NCBI GenBank assembly: GCA_002005505.1
Contig: KV908571.1
Location: 27,072-91,071, forward strand
Direction: 5' to 3'
DNA length: 64,000 nt
Source of the DNA: Botryococcus braunii
Taxonomy: Eukaryota; Chlorophyta; Trebouxiophyceae
Each line of letters begins with the position of its first letter. Positions within the stretch are counted from its first letter, which is position 1. The translations under genes and the position numbers were made by a program. Shown piece by piece: positions 16,114 through 62,239 of this stretch. The notes under the pieces were generated by a model, which was not told the origin of the DNA, did not search any database, and was given only the letters and a program-made list of their open reading frames with translations.

Positions 16114-16852
16114 TGTAACGCGCGGAATGCGTCCCCGTCCGAATCGAGTTCATATACGAGGTCTAATTCGATCTCGTACGTCCGATCACGTGCAGCGCCT
16201 CTTTTGGGTTTCGATTCCGATCTGAGACCACTGTGGCAGGGCACGCCAGGCGAAGGTCCTGGGTTCGATTCCGCTGAGCGCTACATCTATAGTAGGGAGT
16301 AATGTGCCAATTGACCTGTTGTGGGGTCTCTGGATTTTAGAGTCACCTGTCTCCCCACAGAGTAGGCATACTATGACCTTGTTTTAGGGAAACCTTGGTT
16401 GACTGTATTTGTTGTATAAACTGATAGGTACGTATAGATACGTGATGGCAAACGTACTAGATACAGGGGCGCTATCAGTTTATCAAGTGGTTTTAGGAAA
16501 CATTGTATAACTTGAACTTCTCCACGTGTGGAGTACAAGTAAGAGGATGCGCCTGATTGCGTGTCTAAGGGTAATGTATTATGTTCAGTTAGGTTGATCA
16601 TATAGTGACCTCCATGCAGTACAGGTCTTGTACTAGTGACGGTAAGGTCACAAGGTAAAGACTCCATTGAGTGTGTACACGTGTATAAGTATGAGATCCC
16701 TGGTGCAGCTATAGAGCTACACGTTGGCATAGGGCCATGTCAGGGTTGTTTATGTGGCCATGCAGTACGGTACAGCCTCTCGAAAGGAACTGTACCGTTA
16801 CCGCCGGTTACGATTATAAGGTATAGAAACGCCAGATCGCGAGCAAGCTTTG
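16114..16852 (+). other. LTR-like or leader sequence upstream of the intron-bearing block
   Basis: It begins TGTAACG after a purine tract, like an LTR start after a polypurine tract. The first bases resemble the LTR at 37,953 (TGTAACG..GAATGCG). No matching second LTR was found in the window. A GGGTTCGATTCC box near 16,260 resembles a tRNA B box but has no matching stem. No coding frame is supported. Confidence 0.35.
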
Positions 16853-17495
16853 CAGTCGATGGGGTGTGGAATGCATCTGGGCTTCGAGCTCCAAGCTGAA
16901 TAGTGTTTGCTCTGTTTTGAAGGACTGCTTGATATACTGCTGTCACACTCATTTCAATACAGGTAAGCCAGCGATCGTTGGCAAGGGTAACCGTCGCAGT
17001 CGAGTGGCTGCGATCGCAGGCTTTAAGCACATGCATACTGACGTTACTGCCGATAATGAAACATTACATGTGTCTTGTGTTGCAGGAGCTGCATTGCTTG
17101 TATGTTACTGTTGTGCGAACAGTAAGGCTATTTGTGTGTGACGAGTTACACACTGGTTAATAGCGGTGAGTACAGATACGTATAACAAGCTTGCTCCTGC
17201 TGGTTAAATAACTGTTTTGTTTTGATCTCTGATGATCCACATATTGTGCAGATTGGTTGGGAGTAGCCATTAAACTCCTGGGACTGCTGAAGGGCCAAGG
17301 GTGTCCTGATCGGAGAGCAGTCGGTACGTACACATATGTGGATAGGTTGCGTGTGTGTTTGATTTGGTTTAGATATATTTTATGGACACTGATGAACCCA
17401 CAAGTAAATCGTAACGCTCGGGTGCAGGCAGATATAGACGGCAGTGCGAGCACTGGTCTATATAGACATTGAGAGTACTTGGTGGTGTTCACAGG
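16853..17495 (+). other. Intron-bearing (unspliced) block, four exons and three GT-AG introns
   Basis: Comparison with 17,521-17,850 defines exon 1 (16,853-16,962), intron 1 (16,963-17,085, GTAAGC..TTGCAG), exon 2 (17,086-17,165), intron 2 (17,166-17,251, GTGAGT..GTGCAG), exon 3 (17,252-17,323), intron 3 (17,324-17,427, GTACGT..GTGCAG) and exon 4 (17,428-17,495). No long open frame crosses the exons, so it is probably a non-coding leader or RNA rather than a protein gene. It lies upstream of the decayed Ty3 pol. Confidence 0.85.
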
Positions 17496-17520
17496 CAAAT
17501 ATACGTAGACCATTTGTAAC

Positions 17521-17850
17521 CAGTCGATGGGGTGTAGAATGCATCTGGACTTCGAGCTCCAAGCTGAATAGTGTTTGCTCTGTATTGAAGGACTACTTGA
17601 TATACTGCTGTCACACTCATTTCAATACAAGAGCTGCATTGCTTGTATGTTACTGTTGTGCGAACAGTAAGGCTATTTGTGTGTGACGAGTTACACACTG
17701 GTTAATAGCGATTGGTTGGGAGTAGCCATTAAACTCATGGGACTGCTGAAGGGCCAAGGGTGTCCTGATCGGACAGCAGTCGGCATATATAGACGGCAGT
17801 GCGAGCACTGGTCTATATAGACATTGAGAGTACTTGGTGGTGTTCACAGG
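17521..17850 (+). other. Spliced (intronless) copy of the preceding block
   Basis: This 330-bp copy reproduces exons 1-4 of 16,853-17,495 with identical exon lengths (110, 80, 72 and 68 bp) and lacks all three introns at exactly the GT-AG borders. Joins fall at 17,630/17,631, 17,710/17,711 and 17,782/17,783. A handful of substitutions separate the copies. The most direct explanation is reverse transcription of a spliced RNA and insertion 25 bp downstream of its template. Confidence 0.88.
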
Positions 17851-17950
17851 AAGTGACCCTCTGACGGCATACGTACCGCTGACAGTTACGGCATCCTCCA
17901 ACTAATGCATAACAGTATTTAATCCGGTTGTTAATTGGAAACTGAATGCA

Positions 17951-20923
17951 GTGTCATTGATTCATTCTGATAAGACACACGTACTTGTGGGCTGCCAAAG
18001 GTCAGGTGTACCCAAGTATGTTGTCTCTTCCATGGAAGTGGAAGAGTTGGTTAAGTTGGGTGATCCAATGTATCTTCTTCAGCTTAATGCAGTGACTGAA
18101 CCCTCCTCAAACATTAATGCATACGACGTGCCAGAGTTGGAGCAACTTTTGCAGGAATTTAAAGATGTCCTTTCAAGACTGCCTCAGGGCCTGCCTCCTT
18201 CTCGTGCTGGTGATCATCATATTAAATTGGAGACGGACGCCACTCCTCCAGCCTCCCGCAATTATCCACTGTCTGGAGCTCAGCTTGCTGAGCTACGTGC
18301 ACAGTTGCAGGAGCTCCTTGAGAGGGGATTCATCCACTCATCGACTTCCCCTTTTGGTGCACCCATTCTCTTTGTCCCAAAGAAGGATGGTGGTTGGCGT
18401 TTGTGTATTGACTATAGAGCCTTGAACATGATTACAGTGAGAAACCAACACCCTTTACCTAGGATTGATGAAATGTTTGAGCAACTGCATGGTAGTTCTG
18501 TCTTTTCTAAGCTGGATCTTGCTTCTGGTTATCATCAGATTAGGATGCATGATGACAGCATTGAGAAAACAGCATTTAAAACCAGATATGGCCACTATGA
18601 GTTCAGACTGATGCCTTTTGGATTACTAATGCTCCTGCAACATTCCAATCTGTTATGAATACTATCATGGCTCCCTTTCTGGATAGGTTTGTGTTGGTTT
18701 ACCTGGATGACATCCTGATTTATTCTAAATCCGTTGAAGAACACATGGAGCACTTACGTCTTATCCTGTCAGTGCTTAGGGAGCATAAATTCTACTGTAA
18801 AAGATCTAAATGTGAGTTTGTTTCTAAGCAGGTGGAATACTTGGGACACTTGTTGACACCCCAAGGGATTATGGTGGATCCAAGGAAGGTTGCAGCCATC
18901 CGGGATTGGCCCACTCCTTTGAATGTGTCACAGCTGAGAGGTTTCCTAGGCTTAACACAATATTATGACACATTTATGGATTTTGCAGATGTTGCATTTC
19001 CGCTTACTGAATTATTGAAGAAGGATGTGCCTTGGACTTGGGAGGGACCTCAAGCCCAAGCCTTCATTGCATTGAAGGATCGTGTTTCTTCCCCTCCATG
19101 TTTGTTAATGCCAGACTTAGACAAACCTTTTGTGATACATGTAGAGGCCTGTGGGTTTGCAGCAGGATCAAGGACAGGGACTGCAGCCTGACACTTTTGA
19201 GTCCAGGAAACTCCAGCCCCCTGAGAGGAAATTAGCCCCTTATGATAGAGAGTTACTTGCTCTTGTGCATGCTTTGTTGAAATGGAAGCATTTGCTGATG
19301 GGTGCTAAATTTACTGTTCACACTGACCAGCAGGCTTTAAAGTATTTGTTGACTGCTCCTGTTAGGACTAGTAGGCAGGAGGAAAGATGGCTCACTGAGA
19401 TTATGAGATTTATGCCTGATATTAAGTATGTTAAGGGCACTGATAATGTGGTTGCAGATGCTTTGTCTAGGCGTGTTGACCTTGCAGTGATGCATGTCTC
19501 CTCTGTTTCCGTCTCTTCTCTCCTACAAGAGATTGCCTTGCTTTGTGTTTCTGATCCCACAATTGCTAAACTTGTGAATGAAGGTGTTTTGGTATTGAGA
19601 GACTCTGTACCTTATTCTGTGCAGTCAGGGAAGGTGTATGTACCTGATGCATTGAGAGAGAAGGTGCTGAGAGAGTGACATGGCACACCCTTTTCTGGAC
19701 ATCTTGGTATTAACAAGATGTATGAGCTAGTGTGCAGGGAGTTTTGGTGGCCACGTCTCAGCTCATCAGTCAGGGACTTTTGCAGGTCTTGTGGCACCTG
19801 CCAGCGCACTAAAGGGATTGGAACCGTACCTTATGGTTTGCTTCAGCCACTGCCCATTCCGGATGGACCTTGGCAGAGCGTTTCCTTTGATTTAGTGACT
19901 GATTTACCTGTCTGCTGTGGTTTTGACTCTATTGTGGTATTTGTTGATAGGGTTTCTAAGTTGTGTGTCTTGGCTGCATGCACTAAAACCATCACTGCAC
20001 CTCAACTTGCACAACTGTTCATTGACAGGGTCTTTGTTAGGTTTGGTATGCCTACATCCATTGTTAGTGATAGGGATCCTAGATTCACTAGTCACTTCTG
20101 GAAGGCCTTTGTGAAATTACTGGGTACTGAGATTGCTATGTCTACTGCTTATTACCCTCAGACGAACGGGTAGACAGAGAGGATGAATCGGATCATGGAA
20201 GACATGTTAAGAGGGTTTGTGGGGCCGAGACAGGATGACTGGTGCAAGTATTTAAGCATGGTGGAGTTCGCTTATAATAATTCTCTCCAAGCTTCCACAC
20301 TGCAGACACCCTTCTTCCTGAATCACGGGCGCCATCCCCTTACTCCCTTGTCTTCTGCTGTCCCTTCACGTTCTGCCAATCCTGCTGTTCCTGAATGGGT
20401 TGAGGGGCTGCAGACTGCCTTAAAAAGTGCCAAGTCTAATCTTGCCTCTGCACAGCAACGGCAGAAGTCTTATGCAGATAGAAAGAGACGAGACCACCCT
20501 TTCAAGGTGGGGGACCAGGTGTTATTGGCTGCAAGGGAAAACCAGCTTTCACCTGGGCTCTCGTCTAAGCTATCAGCTAAGTATTTTGGGCCCTTTACTA
20601 TTGCTACAGCAGTTGGTACTCGTGCTTTTGGACTTACCTTGCCTGAGACTGCAAATATCCATCATGTGTTTCATGTTTCCCAGCTGAAGCCTAATGTGTC
20701 TTCATCTTCACCAGTGACCGTTACTTCACCTCCTTCTTTGTATGCAGATAAGCGTGGCGGCGTTTACGAAGTTGAGGCCATCATTGCTAAGAAGAGAGTT
20801 GGAAAGTCTTGGCGGTACTTGGTCATAGGGACGGGCTATGATGAGACTGAGAACACTTGGGAGCCCCTTGCCCATGTTCGCCACTTGGCAGACGACGTGG
20901 CAGCTGCCCCAGTCCTTTCTTAA
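17951..20923 (+). pseudogene. Ty3/gypsy chromovirus pol, decayed
   Basis: The order is protease end/linker, RT, RNase H, integrase, chromodomain. RT shows [31 protein letters not shown] and the catalytic VYLDDILIYSK. RNase H shows VHTDQQALKYLL and NVVADALSR. Integrase shows a GHLGINKMY..C..C zinc region and the DDE region up to YYPQTNG. The chromodomain is YEVEAIIAKK..NTWEPL near the end. Damage: one missing base near 18,622, in the RT motif after MPFGL; a shift near 19,150-19,190; an in-frame TGA at about 19,676; and a TAG at 20,171 inside the integrase. Gag and the aspartic protease core are absent, so the copy is 5'-deleted. Confidence 0.93.
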
Positions 20924-21662
20924 GTCCCACTTGCGGGCATCCCTTGCTGAGCCACTTGCGGCCTTGAGACTTTTCCAGCTATATGCGGCTGATGACCCTT
21001 GGATTTCGCCAGCCAGCTTGGATCTGGGAGGGAGGGAGGGCGGAAGGGTCTGGGAGGGAGAGGGATCATGAATTGGGTTTGCATGCATGTCTCTTATCTA
21101 TTTGTGTTGCATGGGTTATGTTTCCTTGACCCACGGCTCCATTTTGTGATGCACTTACTGTGGCAGTGTAGCAGCAAATTGTATTTCCGTGTCTGCATAA
21201 CTTGCTTTGGTATCTTACCCGTGAGATACACTATGTGGCAGTTAGTTGTGTATAGCTTGCTACTCTAGACAATATGCCTTATGCCTGTGCTGGAAAGCCA
21301 CCTCAAGCGAAGGTTACACTGCAGTGCAGGGTAACTGGACCTAAGGTTTGGTCAAGTGCTTGTCTAATGACTCAACCTAATTGTTTCATCACTGGTGTGA
21401 GTGCTGTCTAGAGAGTTCGTCCCCTAAGTTAGAGGATCCGCCTTGCAGACGATAGTCCTTAGAATGTTAAGGTATTCGAGCATTGAGCAGATGAGTCCCT
21501 CGTCTGTGTCGTGCTAACTTGCTTTGTGGACTTCATCCTCTGACTTGCCGAGTACTAACTATAGGAGGCGTGACGTCTATACTTACAGTAAGCAGGGTTC
21601 GTGATACCCCTTTCTTACGTTTGTGGCCCCATTGCCATAAACACCATCTCATAGCTTATGCC
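20924..21662 (+). other. 3' untranslated region of the Ty3 element
   Basis: No coding sequence is supported after the chromodomain stop. It contains a GGGAGGGAGGG tract near 21,030 and leads to a polypurine tract. Confidence 0.5.
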
Positions 21663-21675: not shown

Positions 21676-21981
21676 TGTAGCATTTCCTAGGGTATAATGC
21701 TCTAGTATGGTCCTTGGCATTGCTCTATGACTTGCCATGTGAATTAGATTCGCGGTACAACCTCGCTCAGGTAGTTCGCTCGGTTGCCCGACTACACGTC
21801 TGTGGCAGTACAGTGTACATCCAACCCTGGATGGATTTAAGAGCGGACCTGTGAATCAATCATGTAACACTCTTCCGTGCACACCACGAACTGTCTCACT
21901 GTCTCATAAAAACCTCTTCCGCTCAGTTATCGCTACAACCAAAGTCGGGTTTTGGGCTTCGTGGTCGGGGCAGTGGGTCAG

Positions 21982-22270
21982 ACATTCAATGGAGTCTTTA
22001 TCTCCAAGCAAGCTTGCTGATCAAGCAAGCTTGCTATGTCTCACCTGCGCGTACTCTTCTTGTTTGGCATGCGTGCTTAACTGCGTTAACAAGGTTCCGC
22101 ATGCCTATTACATTGGTAAGCCCCGACTGGTGAGAAGTATGTATAGCTTCATCTTCTAATCTCGTGTGAGCACCCAAAGCATTTTATGAGTCTAACTGGT
22201 GCAGGTGTAGTAAATATGTCGAATGACATTCGTCACCTACGGTAGTAAGAAGGTCGGCTTTGGGTTGCAG
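21982..22270 (+). other. Intron-bearing block, two exons and one GT-AG intron
   Basis: Exon A is 21,982-22,115, the intron is 22,116-22,204 (GTAAGC..GGTGCAG, 89 bp) and exon B is 22,205-22,270. Exon A is preceded by CAG and exon B is followed by GTAAGAG, so both outer edges also look like splice sites. It is defined by comparison with 22,341-22,533. Confidence 0.8.
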
Positions 22271-22340
22271 GTAAGAGTAGTCAGTTGTCGCACTTTAGTT
22301 CGTATCATTATGTGCACGTCATTCAATTCCTTTGTAATAG

Positions 22341-22533
22341 ACATTCAATGGAGTCTTTATCTCCAAGCAAGCTTGCTGATCAAGCAAGCTTGCTATGTCT
22401 CACCTGCGCATACTCTTCTTGTTTGGCATGCTTAACTGCGTTAACAAGGTTCCGCATGCCTATTACATTGGTGTAGTGAATATGTCGAATGACATTCGTC
22501 ACCTACGCTAGTAAGAAGGTCGGCTTTGGGTTG
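22341..22533 (+). other. Spliced copy of the 21,982-22,270 block
   Basis: Exon A (22,341-22,470, with a 4-bp difference from copy 1) joins exon B (22,471 onward) exactly at the GT-AG borders of the 89-bp intron. It is preceded by a 70-bp GT..AG segment (22,271-22,340). Confidence 0.82.
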
Positions 22534-28490: not shown

Positions 28491-29674
28491 TGTAAAAGGT
28501 TATGGGCAGTGGCGTATCCTGTAAGCAAGCAGACAGGTCGTAAGTTCGTGCCTCTCCAGCTACAGTCCTTGACGACTGTCTGCTCTTTTAGACACATGCA
28601 ACTGCATGAACAAGACTGGCATCCTTATGTGCCCAGTATCTTTCCAAACCAGTTCCGTTACATGTTGATCTGTCAATGAGCATCTACACACGGATAAGCT
28701 CCTGACGGCTGAAAGCAAGTACCTTCCTATACTCAATCAAGACTCCGTCCCTTAGCTGTTTGGGAGACTTGATTGTCCACTAAGATGGTTCACTTACAAA
28801 CAAGCAATCAAACATGAACACATTACCAATACACATCCTGCGTCACCGCACCTGTAAGCATGCAGACAGGTCGTAAGTTCGTGCCTCTCCAGCTACAGTC
28901 CTTCACGACTGTCTGCTCTTTTAGTGTGATGGAATGTAGGGATTTCCCGGCATTTCTGGACATTTCCCTTACCCCCTAGCCTAGGCGCACATGTGGCGCA
29001 CATGTCGTACGAGCAACGCGAGTACGCACGTGCCTAGCGTCTAGCCTTGGCTTCCTAGCCGTCGAATTCCATTGGATAGTTATGGACGTTACTCTCATAG
29101 TAGGATTCTAGGATATTTTCTAGATACTATTGTAGAGGTTTGGTGGACTAGTGCGCTACCATTGGAGGAACGTGAACACACGATCACGAACCACGGGAAG
29201 GAACGGATAGAGACGTAAGCCACGGGAAGACACGCACTCAGGTAATTTGGAAGCTTAGTAGACCACAAGTAGGGAGTGGAAGCTCCGTGAGGTGGGGGTT
29301 ACTTGTAATTGGAAAGAGCGTCCAACTTGTCGGCCATCCGGCCTTGTCTCTCTCTCTCTCACAACTTGGAAATTCTCTCTAACTTGTGCATTCTACTACA
29401 TTTAGACACATGCAACTGCATGAACAAGACTGGCATCCTTATGTGCCCAGTATCTTTCCAAACCAGTTGCTCGACTATGCGGTGATCGCAGCTTTAATGG
29501 TCCTTTCACGCTAACGCGTAATCTAAATCAGATTGTACCTTATGTTCGAAATAGACCTCATCCGAACGTGTCTTGAGGTACCTTATGTGGATAGTGGACC
29601 CGTATCCTAATAATGTACATTTGAAGATCACCTAAAGCACAAGGCATTCTATAATGTATGTTCACAACTCAACA
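28491..29674 (-). repeat. 3' LTR of copia copy A (703 bp plus inserted solo LTR)
   Basis: On the minus strand it begins TGTTGAGTTG at 29,674, after the purine tract GCAAGGGGAAG, and ends CCTTTTACA at 28,491. Subtracting the 476-bp insertion and its 5-bp duplication leaves 703 bp, the same as the 5' LTR. Confidence 0.88.
28925..29400 (+). repeat. Ty3-type solo LTR inserted in the copia LTR
   Basis: TGTGATGGAATG..TTCTACTACA, 476 bp, is flanked by TTTAG on both sides (28,920-28,924 and 29,401-29,405). Its start resembles the LTR at 37,953 (GGAATG..GATTTCC..GCATTTC..GGACATTT). No internal region remains, so it is a solo LTR left by LTR-LTR recombination. Confidence 0.9.
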
Positions 29675-29694: not shown

Positions 29695-31269
29695 TTATGT
29701 GTATCTTCTCAAACCTAGTGAATCACGATGACCAACAAACACGGGCTTAGCAAGTGGCTTGGTCATAATGTCAGCCACATTTCGAGCAGATTCTACATAG
29801 AGGATATCTACCTGCCCAAGTGCCATAGCTTCCCTAGCATAGTGGAAGCTTACTGCAACATGCTTTGTGAATTTGGAATAAAGGGGGTTCCGTAAATTGG
29901 AAATGCATCCTTGGTTGTCACAGAAAATTTTGACTCTCCAAGGTGCATCTCCAATCTCTTCCAAGAAGCCCCTAAGCCAGTTGGCTTCCTTCACAATATG
30001 GCCGGCTGCCATAAACTCGGCTTGCACAGTTGAGGTAGCAACTGAGCTCTGCTTCTTGCTTCCCCAAACCATGGCATTACCATAGACTGATAGAACATAG
30101 CCAGTGGTGGAATACCTGTGGTCCAGGTCCCCAGCATAGTCGGCATCAACATAGCCTTCTAGCTCAGGCCCCTTTCCACCCAGAGTAAGAGCTAATTCTC
30201 TCGTATCTCTCAAGTACTTCAGCACTCGAATGGCCTCATTCCAGTGTGAGGTAGTGGGTGTCATTCTATACCTTGACAACACTCCAACCGCCTGAGAAAT
30301 GTCAGGCCGGGTCGTATTGGCAATATATAGCAACGATCCAATCAACTCACAGTACCGATGACCAGGTGGCAGTGGGGTACCTGCCCCATGTGACAAACCA
30401 TCTGAGGACTCGGGTCTGCTGCTAGCCACGAAGTCCTTGGACATGGGGGTATCAACCACACGCCCATCATCAGCAACCCCAAACTTTTCCACAAGAGCAT
30501 CAATCTTGGGAGTGCAACTCATGGAAATAGTGCTCTGAACTCTATTGCGTAGGACCTGACACCCCAGGAAATCATTCACCTCTCCCAAATCATGGATGGT
30601 GAAGTCCTTCTTCAACAACTCTTTCCCCCACTCAATCTCTGCAACCAATCTGGCAACTATGAGAAGATCATCAACATAAACAAGAATAAAGGACAGGTTG
30701 CCATCAGGGGCCCTCCTGATGTATACACCCGCATCACTCTTGCACACACTATACCCCATCACGCTCAACTTGTCGGTCAAGGTCTTGTGCCAAGCCCGTG
30801 GGGCTTGTTTTAGACCGTATAGTGCCTTCCTGAGCTTGCACACAACCCTCGTGTTGCCATTCTCAAATCCTGGTGGTTGGGTCACATAGACCTCTTCCTC
30901 CAACTCTCCATTGAGAAAAGCCGTCTTGATATCCACTTGGTGGATCTCAAGATTCTGTGTGGCAGCCACTGCCAGCACAGCCCTCCTTGCCCCATAGCTG
31001 CTGGTGGGTGCAAATACCTCCCCAACATCTATCCCAGGGATCTGTCTACACCCTTGGGCAACTAACCTCGCTTTAAAGCGAGTAACATTCCCATGTGCAT
31101 CAATTTTAGTGGAGAATATCCAATGGACAGGAATAACTTTTTGTCCATGTGGTCTGTCCACATACTCTAGAACCTCATGGGTATCAAGGGAATCCATCTC
31201 TTCCCTCATTGCTTGTTGCCAAAAATCCCACTGAGGGGAGCATTGGGCTTCCCTCAGGTTAGATGGCAC
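29695..31269 (-). pseudogene. Copia family 1 reverse transcriptase and RNase H (copy A)
   Basis: The open frame of 524 codons starts within the linker before RT (SPQWDFWQQAMREEM). It contains the copia RT motifs KARLVAQGCRQIPGID, IHQVDIKTAFLNGELEEEVY, QPPGFE, ALYGLKQAPRAWH and the catalytic LVYVDDLLIVA. RNase H shows EGYVDADYAGD, AEFMAAG, FCDNQGCISN and ADIMTKPL, then the stop. The RT/RNase H frame is complete, but it is separated from the upstream gag-integrase frame by an internal deletion and shift (31,270-31,560). The element is probably not functional as a unit. Confidence 0.92.
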
Positions 31270-34062: not shown

Positions 34063-34453
34063 TTGCTCTCACAGCGTTCAGCCTGACACAGCTGGTTTAA
34101 GTATACCCTTCCGGCGTGCACCACAGCACTTTAAAGTATTCCACCCTTTCGAGGTCTAGCATGTACCCTTAATATGCAAGATATGCAAAATATTCTTCAG
34201 CAATTCAATTGCTTGACCACCCGGACCTACTGACGGTCTCACGACAATGACGACGGGTGATAATCTCAGGTCACTTCACGGAAAACAAAACTTCCCAAGA
34301 TATTGAAGACTCTGTCCGTAGGCCTTCTGAGTGAATATCCAGTTGTTCCTTTTTTACTTCTTCTTGCCGTCAGGCGCGTCCGTGGAAAACCCAGTACAGA
34401 TGCATCCGATGATGCCATGCACTCCTGTCTGCCCTTGGCTCAGCTGGAAGGGC

Positions 34454-34467
34454 GTGGGCCCATAACC
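34454..34467 (-). promoter_or_regulatory. Primer-binding site, initiator-Met tRNA anticodon arm
   Basis: GTGGGCCCATAACC on the plus strand abuts the LTR end at 34,468 with no spacer. On the element strand it pairs with the anticodon arm rather than the 3' end of initiator tRNA-Met. Confidence 0.72.
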
Positions 34468-35170
34468 TGTAAAAGGTTATGGGCAGTGAAGGATCCTGTA
34501 AGCAAGCAGACAGGTCGTAAGTTCGTGCCTCTCTAGCTACAGTCCTTGACGACTGTCTGCTCTTTTAGACACATGCAACTGCATGAACAAGACTGGCATC
34601 CTTATGTGCCCAGTATCTTTCCAAACCAGTTTCGTTGCATGTTGATCTGTCAATGAGCATCTACACACGGATAAGCTCCTGACGGCTGAAAGCAAGTACC
34701 TTCCTATACTCAATCAAGACTCCGTCCCTTAGCTGTTTGGGAGACTTGATTGTCCACTAAGATGGTTCACTTACAAACAAGCAATCAAACATGAACACAT
34801 TACCAATACACATCCTGCGTCACCGCACCTGTAAGCAAGCAGACAAGTCGTAAGTTCGTGCCTCTCCAGCTACAGTCCTTGACGACTGTCTGCTCTTTTA
34901 GACACATGCAACTGCATGAACAAGACTGGCATCCTTATGTGCCCAGTATCTTTCCAAACCAGTTGCTCGACTATGCGGTGATCGCAGCTTTAATGGTCCT
35001 TTCACGCTAACGCGTAATCTAAATCAGATTGTACCTTATGTTCGAAATAGACCTCATCCGAACGTGTCTTGAGGTACCTTATGTGGATAGTGGACCCGTA
35101 TCCTAATAATGTACATTTGAAGATCACCTAAAGCACAAGGCATTCTATAATGTATGTTCACAAGTCAACA
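34468..35170 (-). repeat. 5' LTR of copia copy A, 703 bp
   Basis: On the minus strand it runs TGTTGA..CCTTTTACA. Within it a segment of about 135 bp (AACTGGTTTGGAAAGATACT..TTACAG) occurs twice. At 35,170 it abuts the truncated plus-strand copy B. Confidence 0.88.
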
Positions 35171-41956: not shown

Positions 41957-42657
41957 TGTTGAGTTGTGAACATACATCATAGAATGCCTTGTGCTTTAGG
42001 TGATCTTCAAATGTACATTATTAGGATACGGGTCCACTATCCACATAAGGTACCTCAAGACACGTTCGGATGAGGTCTATTTCGGACATAAGGTACAATC
42101 TGATTTAGATTACGCGTTAGTGTGAAAGGACTATTAAAGCTGCGATCACCGCATAGTCGAGCAACTGGTTTGGAAAGATACCGGGCACATAAGGATGCCA
42201 GTCTTGTTCATGCAGTTGGATGTGTCTAAAGAGCAGACAGTCGTCAAGGACTGTAGCTGGAGAGGCACGAACTTACGACCTGTCTGCTCGCTTACAGGTG
42301 CGGTGACTCAGGGTGTGTATTGGTAATGTGTTCATGTTTGATTGCTTGTTCGTAAGTGAACCATCTTAGTGGACAATCAAGTCTCCCAAACAGCTAAGGG
42401 ACGGAGTCTTGATTGAGTATAGGAAGGTACTTGCTTTCAGCCGTCAGGAGCTTATCCGTGTGTAGATGCTCATTGACAGATCAACATGTAACGGAACTGG
42501 TTTGGAAAGATACTGGGCACATAAGGATGCCAGTCTTGTTCATGCAGTTGCATGTGTCTAAAGAGCAGACAGTCGTCAAGGACTGTAGCTGGAGAGGCAC
42601 GAACTTACGACATGTCTGCTTCCTTACAGGATACGCCACTGCCCATAACCTTTTACA
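41957..42657 (+). repeat. Solo LTR of copia family 1, 701 bp
   Basis: TGTTGAGTTG..CCTTTTACA is flanked by AAATC on both sides (41,952-41,956 and 42,658-42,662). It lies inside the RT frame of copia family 2. It defines the full family-1 LTR, including an internal direct repeat (42,163-42,297 and 42,495-42,629, 135 bp each). Confidence 0.94.
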
Positions 42658-60922: not shown

Positions 60923-61916
60923 CTGTGCGGCTCCCTCAGCAGCAGAGCATACGGCATCTCATCTCCGCGTGCGCCGGGTCATGCACACTTTAATTTTTTT
61001 CTAAGCAGAGCATACGGCTCTGTCACGCGAACCAGGTGGTAGCATCACGCGCCTTGCAGCGAGCTTACACCGCGCAGAGTTACCTGCAACACACCGCTGT
61101 AAAAGAGCCGCCGCTCAGCCTGCCACGCCTGCTTCTCCCATCTACTCATGCTAAATGAGGCTGAAATTACCGTTTACAGACCTTATGGCCCACTTCCAGA
61201 CTTCTGAGCTACGCCGCATAAAGGCGCAGCTGTGGCCTCTTTATCGGGCGAGAACATAATTGCGAAAATTATAGGCCTTCCTAGCCAGAACGCGTGGGTT
61301 ACACCCCGTCCAAGCGTGTTGCTAATCGCGCCTGTGTTAGAAAAATGGACATTAACATGTATACCTTAGGTAGTTATGTGACATGTTGGGTCATTTCATA
61401 TTAGCATGTTTGTAAGCCACATCTATCATTAAAAGGCTTTATAATACTTATAATACATATAAACAATAAGGTACAGTCATATCTCACTTGAGTGTGTTTG
61501 TACTGTAAGGTACTTTATGGTTATATGACACGCATAGTGATTTATAGGGGCCATGGTACAATTCCGGCCTGTTTTCTGCCAGTTTTCTAGTATAGTATAC
61601 TCATCCCGGATCTCATCGATCGTGAGACTTTAAGTCCTGCGGTCCTTGGTTTCTGATTCGTGACTTGTATCGATGATGAGTTAAAGTTCCGAGTCACTTA
61701 GATTCGAGACTACCATCGACCGAGATTCGTACTGTTCATCGACGACCATGTCGAATCATAAGGTACATTGAAATTCCAGTGCATAGTACTGATGGCATGC
61801 AAACTTGATCGTGCCCGTACGCTTTAAGATCTGGAGTTGCAAACCTGTCAGGAGGCTAATAAATGTGTAGTCTCCTTGGTTAGTACAAATAGGAAGTGCT
61901 CTAACAGGCCAGTCAG
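60923..61916. other. Unassigned interval, probable leader or LTR of the downstream Ty3-like element
   Basis: It contains a 50-bp segment shared with 23,452-23,503. Further right the sequence is A/T-rich with AAGGTAC motifs (61,470, 61,508, 61,760). The primer-binding site at 62,240 implies that an LTR ends just before it, but the LTR start was not found. Confidence 0.4.
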
Positions 61917-62178
61917 TCTTGAATTCCCTTATCAAGCTCCTGTGCCGTTTGCTTGGTCGTGTTTCGTCCAGTTCTACAAGCTTTTGTTTGAGCACAGTTC
62001 ACTTACTCTAAAACAGTGTGACTTACAGGTAATTGCAACATCATTAGTTAGTTGTTATTGTAAAAGTCTTGAGTTCCCTTATCAAGCTCCTGTGCCATTT
62101 GCTTGGTCGTGTTTCGTCCACTTCTACAAGCTTTTGTTTGAGCACAGTTCACTTACTCTAAAAGAGTGTGATTTACAG
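61917..62178 (+). repeat. Duplicated 112-bp exon-like block with a 38-bp GT-AG spacer
   Basis: Copy 1 (61,917-62,028) is preceded by CAG and followed by GTAATTG. Copy 2 (62,067-62,178) is preceded by AAAAG and followed by GGAGTAAC. Both are 112 bp and start TCTTGA(A/G)TTCCC. The spacer 62,029-62,066 starts GT and ends AG. Confidence 0.9.
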
Positions 62179-62239
62179 GGAGTAACATTTTAACTTCAAA
62201 TTCTACAAATTCTGTTTTGAAGATGCCATTTTGCGTAAA

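Follow-up and report, generated by a model that had tools for sequence, protein, structure and literature searches.

An intron-containing leader and its spliced copy side by side in the LTRs of copia-type elements of Botryococcus braunii

Introduction

LTR retrotransposons are thought to shield their genomic RNA from splicing, and an intron that has been spliced out is lost in the next copy. In HTLV, BLV and the foamy viruses the splice donor lies in R, so that a leader donor is found inside the LTR; to our knowledge, the genomic RNA of these viruses is unspliced and has no duplicated leader. The introns of Ogre and Cer1 are, as far as we know, internal, and the LTRs of these elements hold no spliced copy. 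According to the part of PMC12786077 cited here, plant LTR elements are generally without introns, Ogre and EVADE being exceptions, and in EVADE and BARE1 splicing of the coding region makes a short GAG mRNA. Split-intron retroviral vectors, as the portion of PMC3182074 used here describes them, have a splice donor between U3 and R of the 3′ LTR that is copied to the 5′ LTR, and after reverse transcription the new RNA is spliced in its leader. Motif duplications in the HIV LTR, in the excerpt of PMC12115494 at hand, are transcription-factor sites.

The stretch of DNA analyzed here (the window) is 64,000 nucleotides from the green alga Botryococcus braunii (assembly GCA_002005505.1, contig KV908571.1, positions 27,072–91,071). 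It contains an LTR in which an intron-bearing block is followed, 25 bp downstream and in the same orientation, by a spliced version of itself. The upstream and downstream blocks are called unit 1 (R1) and unit 2 (R2) below.

Results and discussion

The window tandem is part of a solo LTR

Global alignment of 16,853–17,495 with 17,521–17,850 confirms the anatomy given in the initial annotation, namely four blocks in the same order and, in the first copy, three additional segments of 123, 86 and 104 bp (borders GTAAG..TTGCAG, GTGAG..GTGCAG and GTACG..GTGCAG) that the second copy lacks precisely at the GT-AG borders; homology starts at 16,854/17,522, or one base earlier in the window copy. The second block had been called an exact spliced copy, which it is not, as the exons of the two units differ at 8 of about 328 positions. 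Removal at the splice borders makes reverse transcription of a spliced RNA of the first block the best explanation of the second, as had been proposed. This was not a lone retrocopy that landed beside its template, since both blocks are parts of one copia LTR (family A; Table 1) and the tandem is found genome-wide. The LTR in the window is solo and gene-free, with a 5-bp target duplication at both ends. An adjacent retrotransposon had been noted and is indeed present, but it is an unrelated gypsy element, a reverse transcriptase piece of which matches RVT_1, and it is the host into which the LTR was inserted. Its pol remnant, unrelated to the LTR family, occupies 17,920–20,930 in several frames. 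The overall interpretation in the initial annotation is partly supported.

Table 1. Positions of LTR features in the window, with the basis of each assignment
Feature	Positions	Strand	Basis or remark
Target-site duplication GTATT, left, 5 bp	16,405–16,409		identical to 17,915–17,919
Solo LTR, copia family A, TGTTG...AACA, 1,505 bp	16,410–17,914	+	about 1,504 bp match to full-length L010 LTR, 96.3%
U3 part, upstream of presumed start site	16,410–16,853	+	comparison with other copies
TATA-like TATAGAAA, 32 nt upstream of presumed start	16,822–16,829	+	by eye; CATAGAAA in many other copies
Unit 1 exon 1; A16854 is the presumed transcription start	16,854–16,962	+	unit 2 starts at same base in most copies
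Intron 1, GT-AG	16,963–17,085	+	alignment; GT 50/50, AG 49/51 matched sites
Unit 1 exon 2	17,086–17,165	+	alignment
Intron 2, GT-AG	17,166–17,251	+	alignment; GT 51/51, AG 51/51 matched sites
Unit 1 exon 3	17,252–17,323	+	alignment
Intron 3, GT-AG	17,324–17,427	+	alignment; GT 51/51, AG 52/52 matched sites
Unit 1 exon 4, ends TTCACAG	17,428–17,494	+	alignment
Intron 4 stump, family GTAAAT, here GCAAAT, ends TGTAAC	17,495–17,520	+	52 GT and 1 GC of 53 sites
TGTAA, chlorophyte-type poly(A) signal, adjoins unit 2	17,515–17,519	+	one representative per family in 8 families; PMC1868727 (part cited)
Unit 2, spliced exons 1–4: 17,522–17,630, 17,631–17,710, 17,711–17,782, 17,783–17,849	17,522–17,849	+	alignment, unit comparison
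Exon 5/U5, directly joined to unit 2 exon 4	17,850–17,914	+	different U5 variants join at same CAG/G
Target-site duplication GTATT, right, 5 bp	17,915–17,919		identical to left flank
Family C unit 1: exon 1 21,978–22,115, intron 22,116–22,204, exon 2 22,205–22,270, donor GTAAGAG at 22,271	21,978–22,270	+	
Family C unit 2, spliced, after ..CCTTTGTAAT; exon 2/U5 joint not CAG	22,337–22,533	+	
Third family B LTR: unit 1 interrupted by insertion (29,468–29,401, 28,924–28,851), unit 2 28,654–28,518	28,518–29,468	-	
Second family B LTR: unit 1 34,964–34,828, unit 2 34,631–34,495	34,495–34,964	-	repeat reading
Family B LTR, unit 1 exon, then GTGCGG donor	42,163–42,298	+	repeat reading
Family B unit 2, after ..CATGTAACGG, then ATACGCC (U5)	42,495–42,630	+	repeat reading

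Family A and its fourth intron

A search of the 176-Mb genome for recurring unspliced-plus-spliced tandems, which the initial annotation had suggested, found the whole 998-bp tandem at full length and 96–98% identity in at least 39 places besides the window's own (40 scored of 193 candidates), many of them paired at distances of 6.1–6.7 kb. Across the genome there are 115 exon 4/spacer sites, against 0 matches for the control. In 20 tandem-bearing stretches that were read, LTRs of about 1.5 kb stand in pairs. Where both units were within reach, the family A LTRs that were read contain the tandem, the exceptions being the 5′ LTR of L020 and the spliced-only LTRs discussed below. That 5′ LTR (L020:775–1922) has no unit 2, and exon 4 runs straight into U5; the other LTR in the locus has unit 2, and recombination between two exon 4 copies is probably responsible. 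The LTR pairs of seven elements (L009–L014 and L017) are 98.7–99.9% alike and have identical 5-bp flanks, so family A has been active recently. Identical 5-bp flanks also enclose L035/L036, L040/L041 and the window solo LTR. These target duplications flank whole LTRs or elements and not the extra segments; independent insertion of the segments, each with its own target duplication, is not borne out, and at almost every site their splice dinucleotides are preserved. L015 is not a simple LTR pair; it belongs to an LTR chain on C41 whose outer ends share GGGAC. This chain (L015, L037 and L038; G000:C41:397306–419013) consists of four LTRs of different subfamilies and three internal regions, flanked as a whole by a single GGGAC target duplication, and is a recombined multimer.

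A pol piece of the full-length element L010 matches RVT_2 (PF07727, E 3.3e-65), and this type of reverse transcriptase places family A in Ty1/copia. Read by eye, a 1,434-amino acid frame has an HHCC-like and a DDE-like region before YVDD, which puts integrase ahead of reverse transcriptase. The sequence TGGGCCCAC, a candidate binding site for a tRNA primer of the minus strand, follows the LTR in families A, B, D, E and G; the presumed tRNA arm has four matches, and the three that were fetched are element-like sequence in which ARAGORN found 0 tRNAs.

In other copies the 25-bp spacer between the units begins as the donor of a fourth intron. At 52 of the 53 sites read (52 LTRs, L024 giving two sites), exon 4 of unit 1 runs into a 5′ splice site, GTAAATATACGTAAACCATTTGTAA or a close variant of it; the window alone has GC. 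Unit 2 has its exon 4 joined to U5 without a trace of the spacer in the copies read, except for the middle unit of L024. A donor after unit 1 with none in unit 2 identifies the spacer as the stump of intron 4, which has been removed from unit 2 as well. L024 has three units, the middle one without introns 1–3 but with intron 4 after it; a pattern search (89 nt, at most 3 mismatches) detected a spliced unit with intron 4 behind it at no other place. An ancestral LTR with a complete intron 4 was not found among the 53 of 115 sites read, all of which enter unit 2 1–3 nt past TGTAA. Shifted joints are absent among the unit-2 joints read, and point changes are present in the window, L016, L018 and L046; alternative splicing in unit 2 was considered as proof of repeated splicing and was dropped, as none of the joints read is shifted.

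Strongly divergent U5 variants follow a nearly constant exon 4 in L003, L009, L013, L016, L021, L026, L029 and L030, and in these eight loci the switch between variants falls at the exon 4/U5 joint. L042 (1–1840) and L043 (1–1810) contain the last 27 bp of exon 4, the intron stump and unit 2; foreign intron-like sequence, 98% common to both, precedes the end of exon 4, and their 3′ flank is as in L024.

Seven further families with the same layout

A scan of the window and the fetched loci (42 sequences) for internal direct repeats, followed by reading of the hits, found the same layout in seven more LTR families, B through H. There were 29 rows outside family A, of which 17 fit the layout and 12, which are simple or other tandem repeats, do not. 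One of these 12, at 61,915–62,179 of the window, is a 115-bp direct repeat with TGTAAA before its second copy and without a GT donor. TGTAA/unit-2 joints number 596 in family B and 293 in family E genome-wide, with 0 control matches each, and many of those listed are about 6.4 kb (B) and 6.6 kb (E) apart, as expected of LTR pairs. Beside a family B LTR, window positions 29,695–31,269 match PF07727 (E 9.2e-63); the copia protein link holds for A and B, and C, D and F–H are called LTRs by their anatomy. Families B and D–G have no complete intron in R1, and the last intron is the one sign of splicing in them. The second family B LTR of the window has TGCAACGA instead of TGTAACGG at the position of the TGTAA joint. 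At 34,453–34,494 (minus strand), family B U5 can pair with the sequence beyond the LTR (CCCATAACC with GGTTATGGG), which would form a hairpin at the LTR border. At G000:C27:676947 and 677861, two family B joints lie 914 bp apart in the same orientation.

Within an LTR the two units remain very similar while lineages differ. Unit 1 and unit 2 are 92–100% identical in 11 comparisons (A, B twice, C, D, E four times, F and G). Fourteen comparisons between lineages gave 29–92% identity, with units 1 and 2 agreeing within about 2 points; values of 0.3–0.55 are near the level of unrelated sequences. Family H is a distant relative of A and has the same intron series as far as its locus shows. In exons 3 and 4, the two exons compared for H, A and H are 62–64% identical and the two H units 97–99%; unit-1 exon 1 of H lies outside the locus, and the whole-unit value for H (0.61) is low owing to an internal repeat expansion in unit-1 exon 2.

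Marks at the joint between the units

Unit 2 starts 1–3 nt after TGTAA in all eight families (one representative LTR per family). According to the part of PMC1868727 cited here, chlorophytes use UGUAA as their poly(A) signal; it lies between -10 and -30 relative to the cleavage site, peaking sharply near -17, and streptophytes do not have UGUAA as a positioned signal. At this distance, the putative cleavage site would lie about 10–15 nt inside unit 2, so that the two ends of the RNA would have these bases in common. The presumed start is the A of R1, in family A in the sequence AGTCGATGG, and TATA-like boxes were seen by eye about 26–32 nt upstream of unit 1 in families A, B, E and F. In family A, R2 is itself preceded by an A/T-rich stretch, a possible second start site.

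The base before unit 2 is G in seven of eight families (one LTR each), family C lacking it, and unit 1 is preceded by C or T in each of the seven families where this base is readable. As each block is bounded by its first mismatch, the bases before the two units must differ, and the chance of a G is about 1 in 3 rather than 1 in 4. Among family A joints, G precedes unit 2 in 41 of 53, CC in 11 and C in one, and the joint bases vary between close relatives. Copying of the cap, as is usual for reverse transcriptases, would leave an added G, and the G before unit 2 may be cap-derived.

The two units change together

Differences between unit 1 and unit 2 sum to 138 over 46 family A LTRs, and random pairings of the units have a mean of 328 and a minimum of 274 (10,000 permutations); the 46 include pairs from one element, and the permutation is to be read as a strong contrast and not as a strict probability. 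Seven of the 53 sites were omitted because a unit is truncated or absent (the second of L018, and L027, L030, L031, L032, L042 and L043). The units are identical in 11 of the 46 LTRs and differ by 3.0 positions on average, versus 7.2 when the two units come from different LTRs. For 10 of the 14 diagnostic columns, the rarer unit-1 allele is in both units of every LTR that has it; at the remaining four it is in both units in 17/18, 8/10, 2/3 and 0/3 (column 42) LTRs. A single TC insertion close to the start site accounts for diagnostic columns 0 and 1, and it is present in both units of all six LTRs bearing it.

Among nine elements with matching target duplications, six have no unit difference common to both LTRs, which means that their units did not differ when the elements inserted; one common difference is present in each of L013 and L014, and seven in L011 (L016, with two common differences, and L015 and L037/L038, which are not simple pairs, are outside this count). 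In both LTRs of L011 the unit-1 exons are of one subfamily and unit-2 exons 1–2 are of the L028 type. This pattern would be expected if the strong-stop cDNA had derived from another RNA; because L011 has a U5 of the first type, this would also require a template switch inside the leader. The units of a tandem made once and then inherited would be expected to drift apart. Units 1 and 2 have not done so, and these comparisons suggest that the spliced copy has been rewritten repeatedly, at nearly every jump.

One competing explanation is a single ancient reverse-transcription accident followed by faithful copying, in which transcription starts at R2 and R1 is a passive part of U3. It would account for the one layout shared by the copies of a family, and the TGTAA just before R2 fits a conventional short R that starts there. 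Faithful inheritance does not, however, predict that subfamily variants are common to R1 and R2 of the same LTR or that both units change in step between lineages, and the joint bases differ among close relatives; we consider this explanation unlikely. Homogenization of an ancient tandem by gene conversion, or by template switching between R1 and R2, would also keep units alike. Direct repeats do recombine, R2 has been lost from the L020 5′ LTR, and L024 could be an unequal exchange. Such a process would have to act on four intron-separated exon blocks in family A, in all lineages read and in eight families, yet no intron has moved into R2 at any of the unit-2 joints read. It also leaves the G before R2 and the TGTAA at its edge unexplained, and the R2 of L011 is foreign as a single piece across an exon border. 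Homogenization is improbable as the source of the pattern. An assembly or annotation artefact, for which no sign was found, is hardly credible, given 115, 596 and 293 sites in families A, B and E, each with 0 control matches, and their different flanks and target duplications. An ordinary retrocopy of a host transcript beside its source, with a retrotransposon as chance neighbor, would fit the local anatomy, but it has next to no probability and is already refuted as a description of the family by at least 39 other places where the tandem lies in LTRs, the target duplications enclosing the LTR or element as a whole, and by an R2 that, in the copies read, sits between intron stump and U5 and has neither a poly(A) tract nor its own target duplication.

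A proposed rewriting cycle

Repeated rewriting is probably best understood as follows: the LTR keeps two versions of the leader, R1 with introns at the start site and R2, the spliced cDNA of R1, with U5. Transcription would begin with the first nucleotide of R1. Introns 1–3 of the 5′ LTR would be spliced out, and so would a last intron whose donor follows R1 and whose acceptor is the terminal CAG of R2. The intron stump and unit 2 would thereby be excised, and the 5′ end of the RNA would be exons 1–4 plus U5, the same as R2-U5. In the 3′ LTR, UGUAA at the end of the stump would direct cleavage about 10–15 nt inside R2, and the RNA would end with unspliced R1 and the first bases of R2, which equal its 5′ end and form a very short R. 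The minus strong-stop cDNA made on the spliced leader, in many cases extended by one cap-copied base, would then transfer to this short R. The product, U3-R1(unspliced)-R2(spliced)-U5, would be the starting structure with R2 freshly rewritten from R1. An earlier version, in which the cDNA jumped end to end onto the RNA 3′ end without homology, was replaced, as the TGTAA at the joints of other families points to a short R.

Comparison of the copies establishes that R2 has the form of spliced R1, that the units are alike within each LTR and that the layout is present in eight families. From these observations we infer the start site, the poly(A) site, the splicing of the last intron, the order of the steps and the rewriting at nearly every cycle. 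Several findings sit less easily with the proposed cycle. Splicing of introns 1–3 would be expected in the 3′ LTR as well, yet the pattern search detected one place, the L024 middle unit, where intron 4 comes after a spliced unit; a likely reason for the retention of introns 1–3 in the 3′ copy would be that splicing is efficient in the cap-proximal copy only. The family B LTR with TGCAACGA, and family C without the G and without CAG at the exon 2/U5 joint, also depart from it.

If the last intron were kept, one unit would be added each cycle; such additions are rarely seen, and the triple unit of L024, with intron 4 kept, fits the cycle as a by-product. In family B, one joint pair is exactly one unit apart (C48; among 100 listed of 596). 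A probe for U3 joined to a spliced unit gave five full-length matches (40 scored of 348 candidates), and the four of these that were read (L049–L052) are U3-spliced unit-U5, in three subfamilies by their variants. Such spliced-only LTRs would arise if the cDNA transferred to the homologous exon 1 of the 3′ R1 instead of the short R, and DNA recombination between the units could produce them as well. In L051 and L052 the C before the start base has been lost, which a cap-derived G fits better than DNA recombination does.

If the cycle is correct, the last intron holds the poly(A) signal and a whole second leader, and one splice would both silence the 5′ poly(A) site and make the RNA terminally redundant. 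This is a possible answer to the old question of how, with identical LTRs, a poly(A) site is ignored at the 5′ end and used at the 3′ end.

Comparison with known systems

Like copia and EVADE/ATCOPIA93, the elements described here have an RVT_2 reverse transcriptase (families A and B), LTRs and 5-bp target duplications (family A), as in Ty1/copia generally. They differ from EVADE and BARE1 in that the introns are in the LTR itself, which also holds the spliced product. Ogre and Cer1 have spliced LTR-element RNA, as is proposed here (PMC12786077, in the part cited). Processed retrocopies and the TyH3 intron-loss reporters, as covered in the same part of PMC12786077, likewise lose an intron by way of RNA. 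In those cases the intron is lost for good, whereas the present LTRs retain it in unit 1 and lack it in unit 2. Among engineered systems the split-intron vector comes closest, and the anatomy and concerted units found here would fit a comparable recreation of a leader intron. Those vectors are man-made, however; splicing deprives their RNA of the packaging signal, the spliced form is not intended for recopying and the LTR is not rewritten.

Two sequence scans of viral contigs found no relatives, and the searches made of openly licensed PMC papers turned up no description of such LTRs. The arrangement is a new kind of LTR organization within a known superfamily. We also favor, with somewhat less assurance than the proposed cycle, the fuller reading that this is an undescribed design of a whole clade of copia elements, with an unspliced leader in U3, a spliced one in U5 and obligatory rewriting at every transposition. 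The introns lie inside the LTR, and with 1,004 sites in three families alone (115 + 596 + 293) the design is a successful one. These LTRs may keep a visible record of splicing and strand transfer in their alike units, a possibly cap-derived G and the foreign unit 2 of L011.
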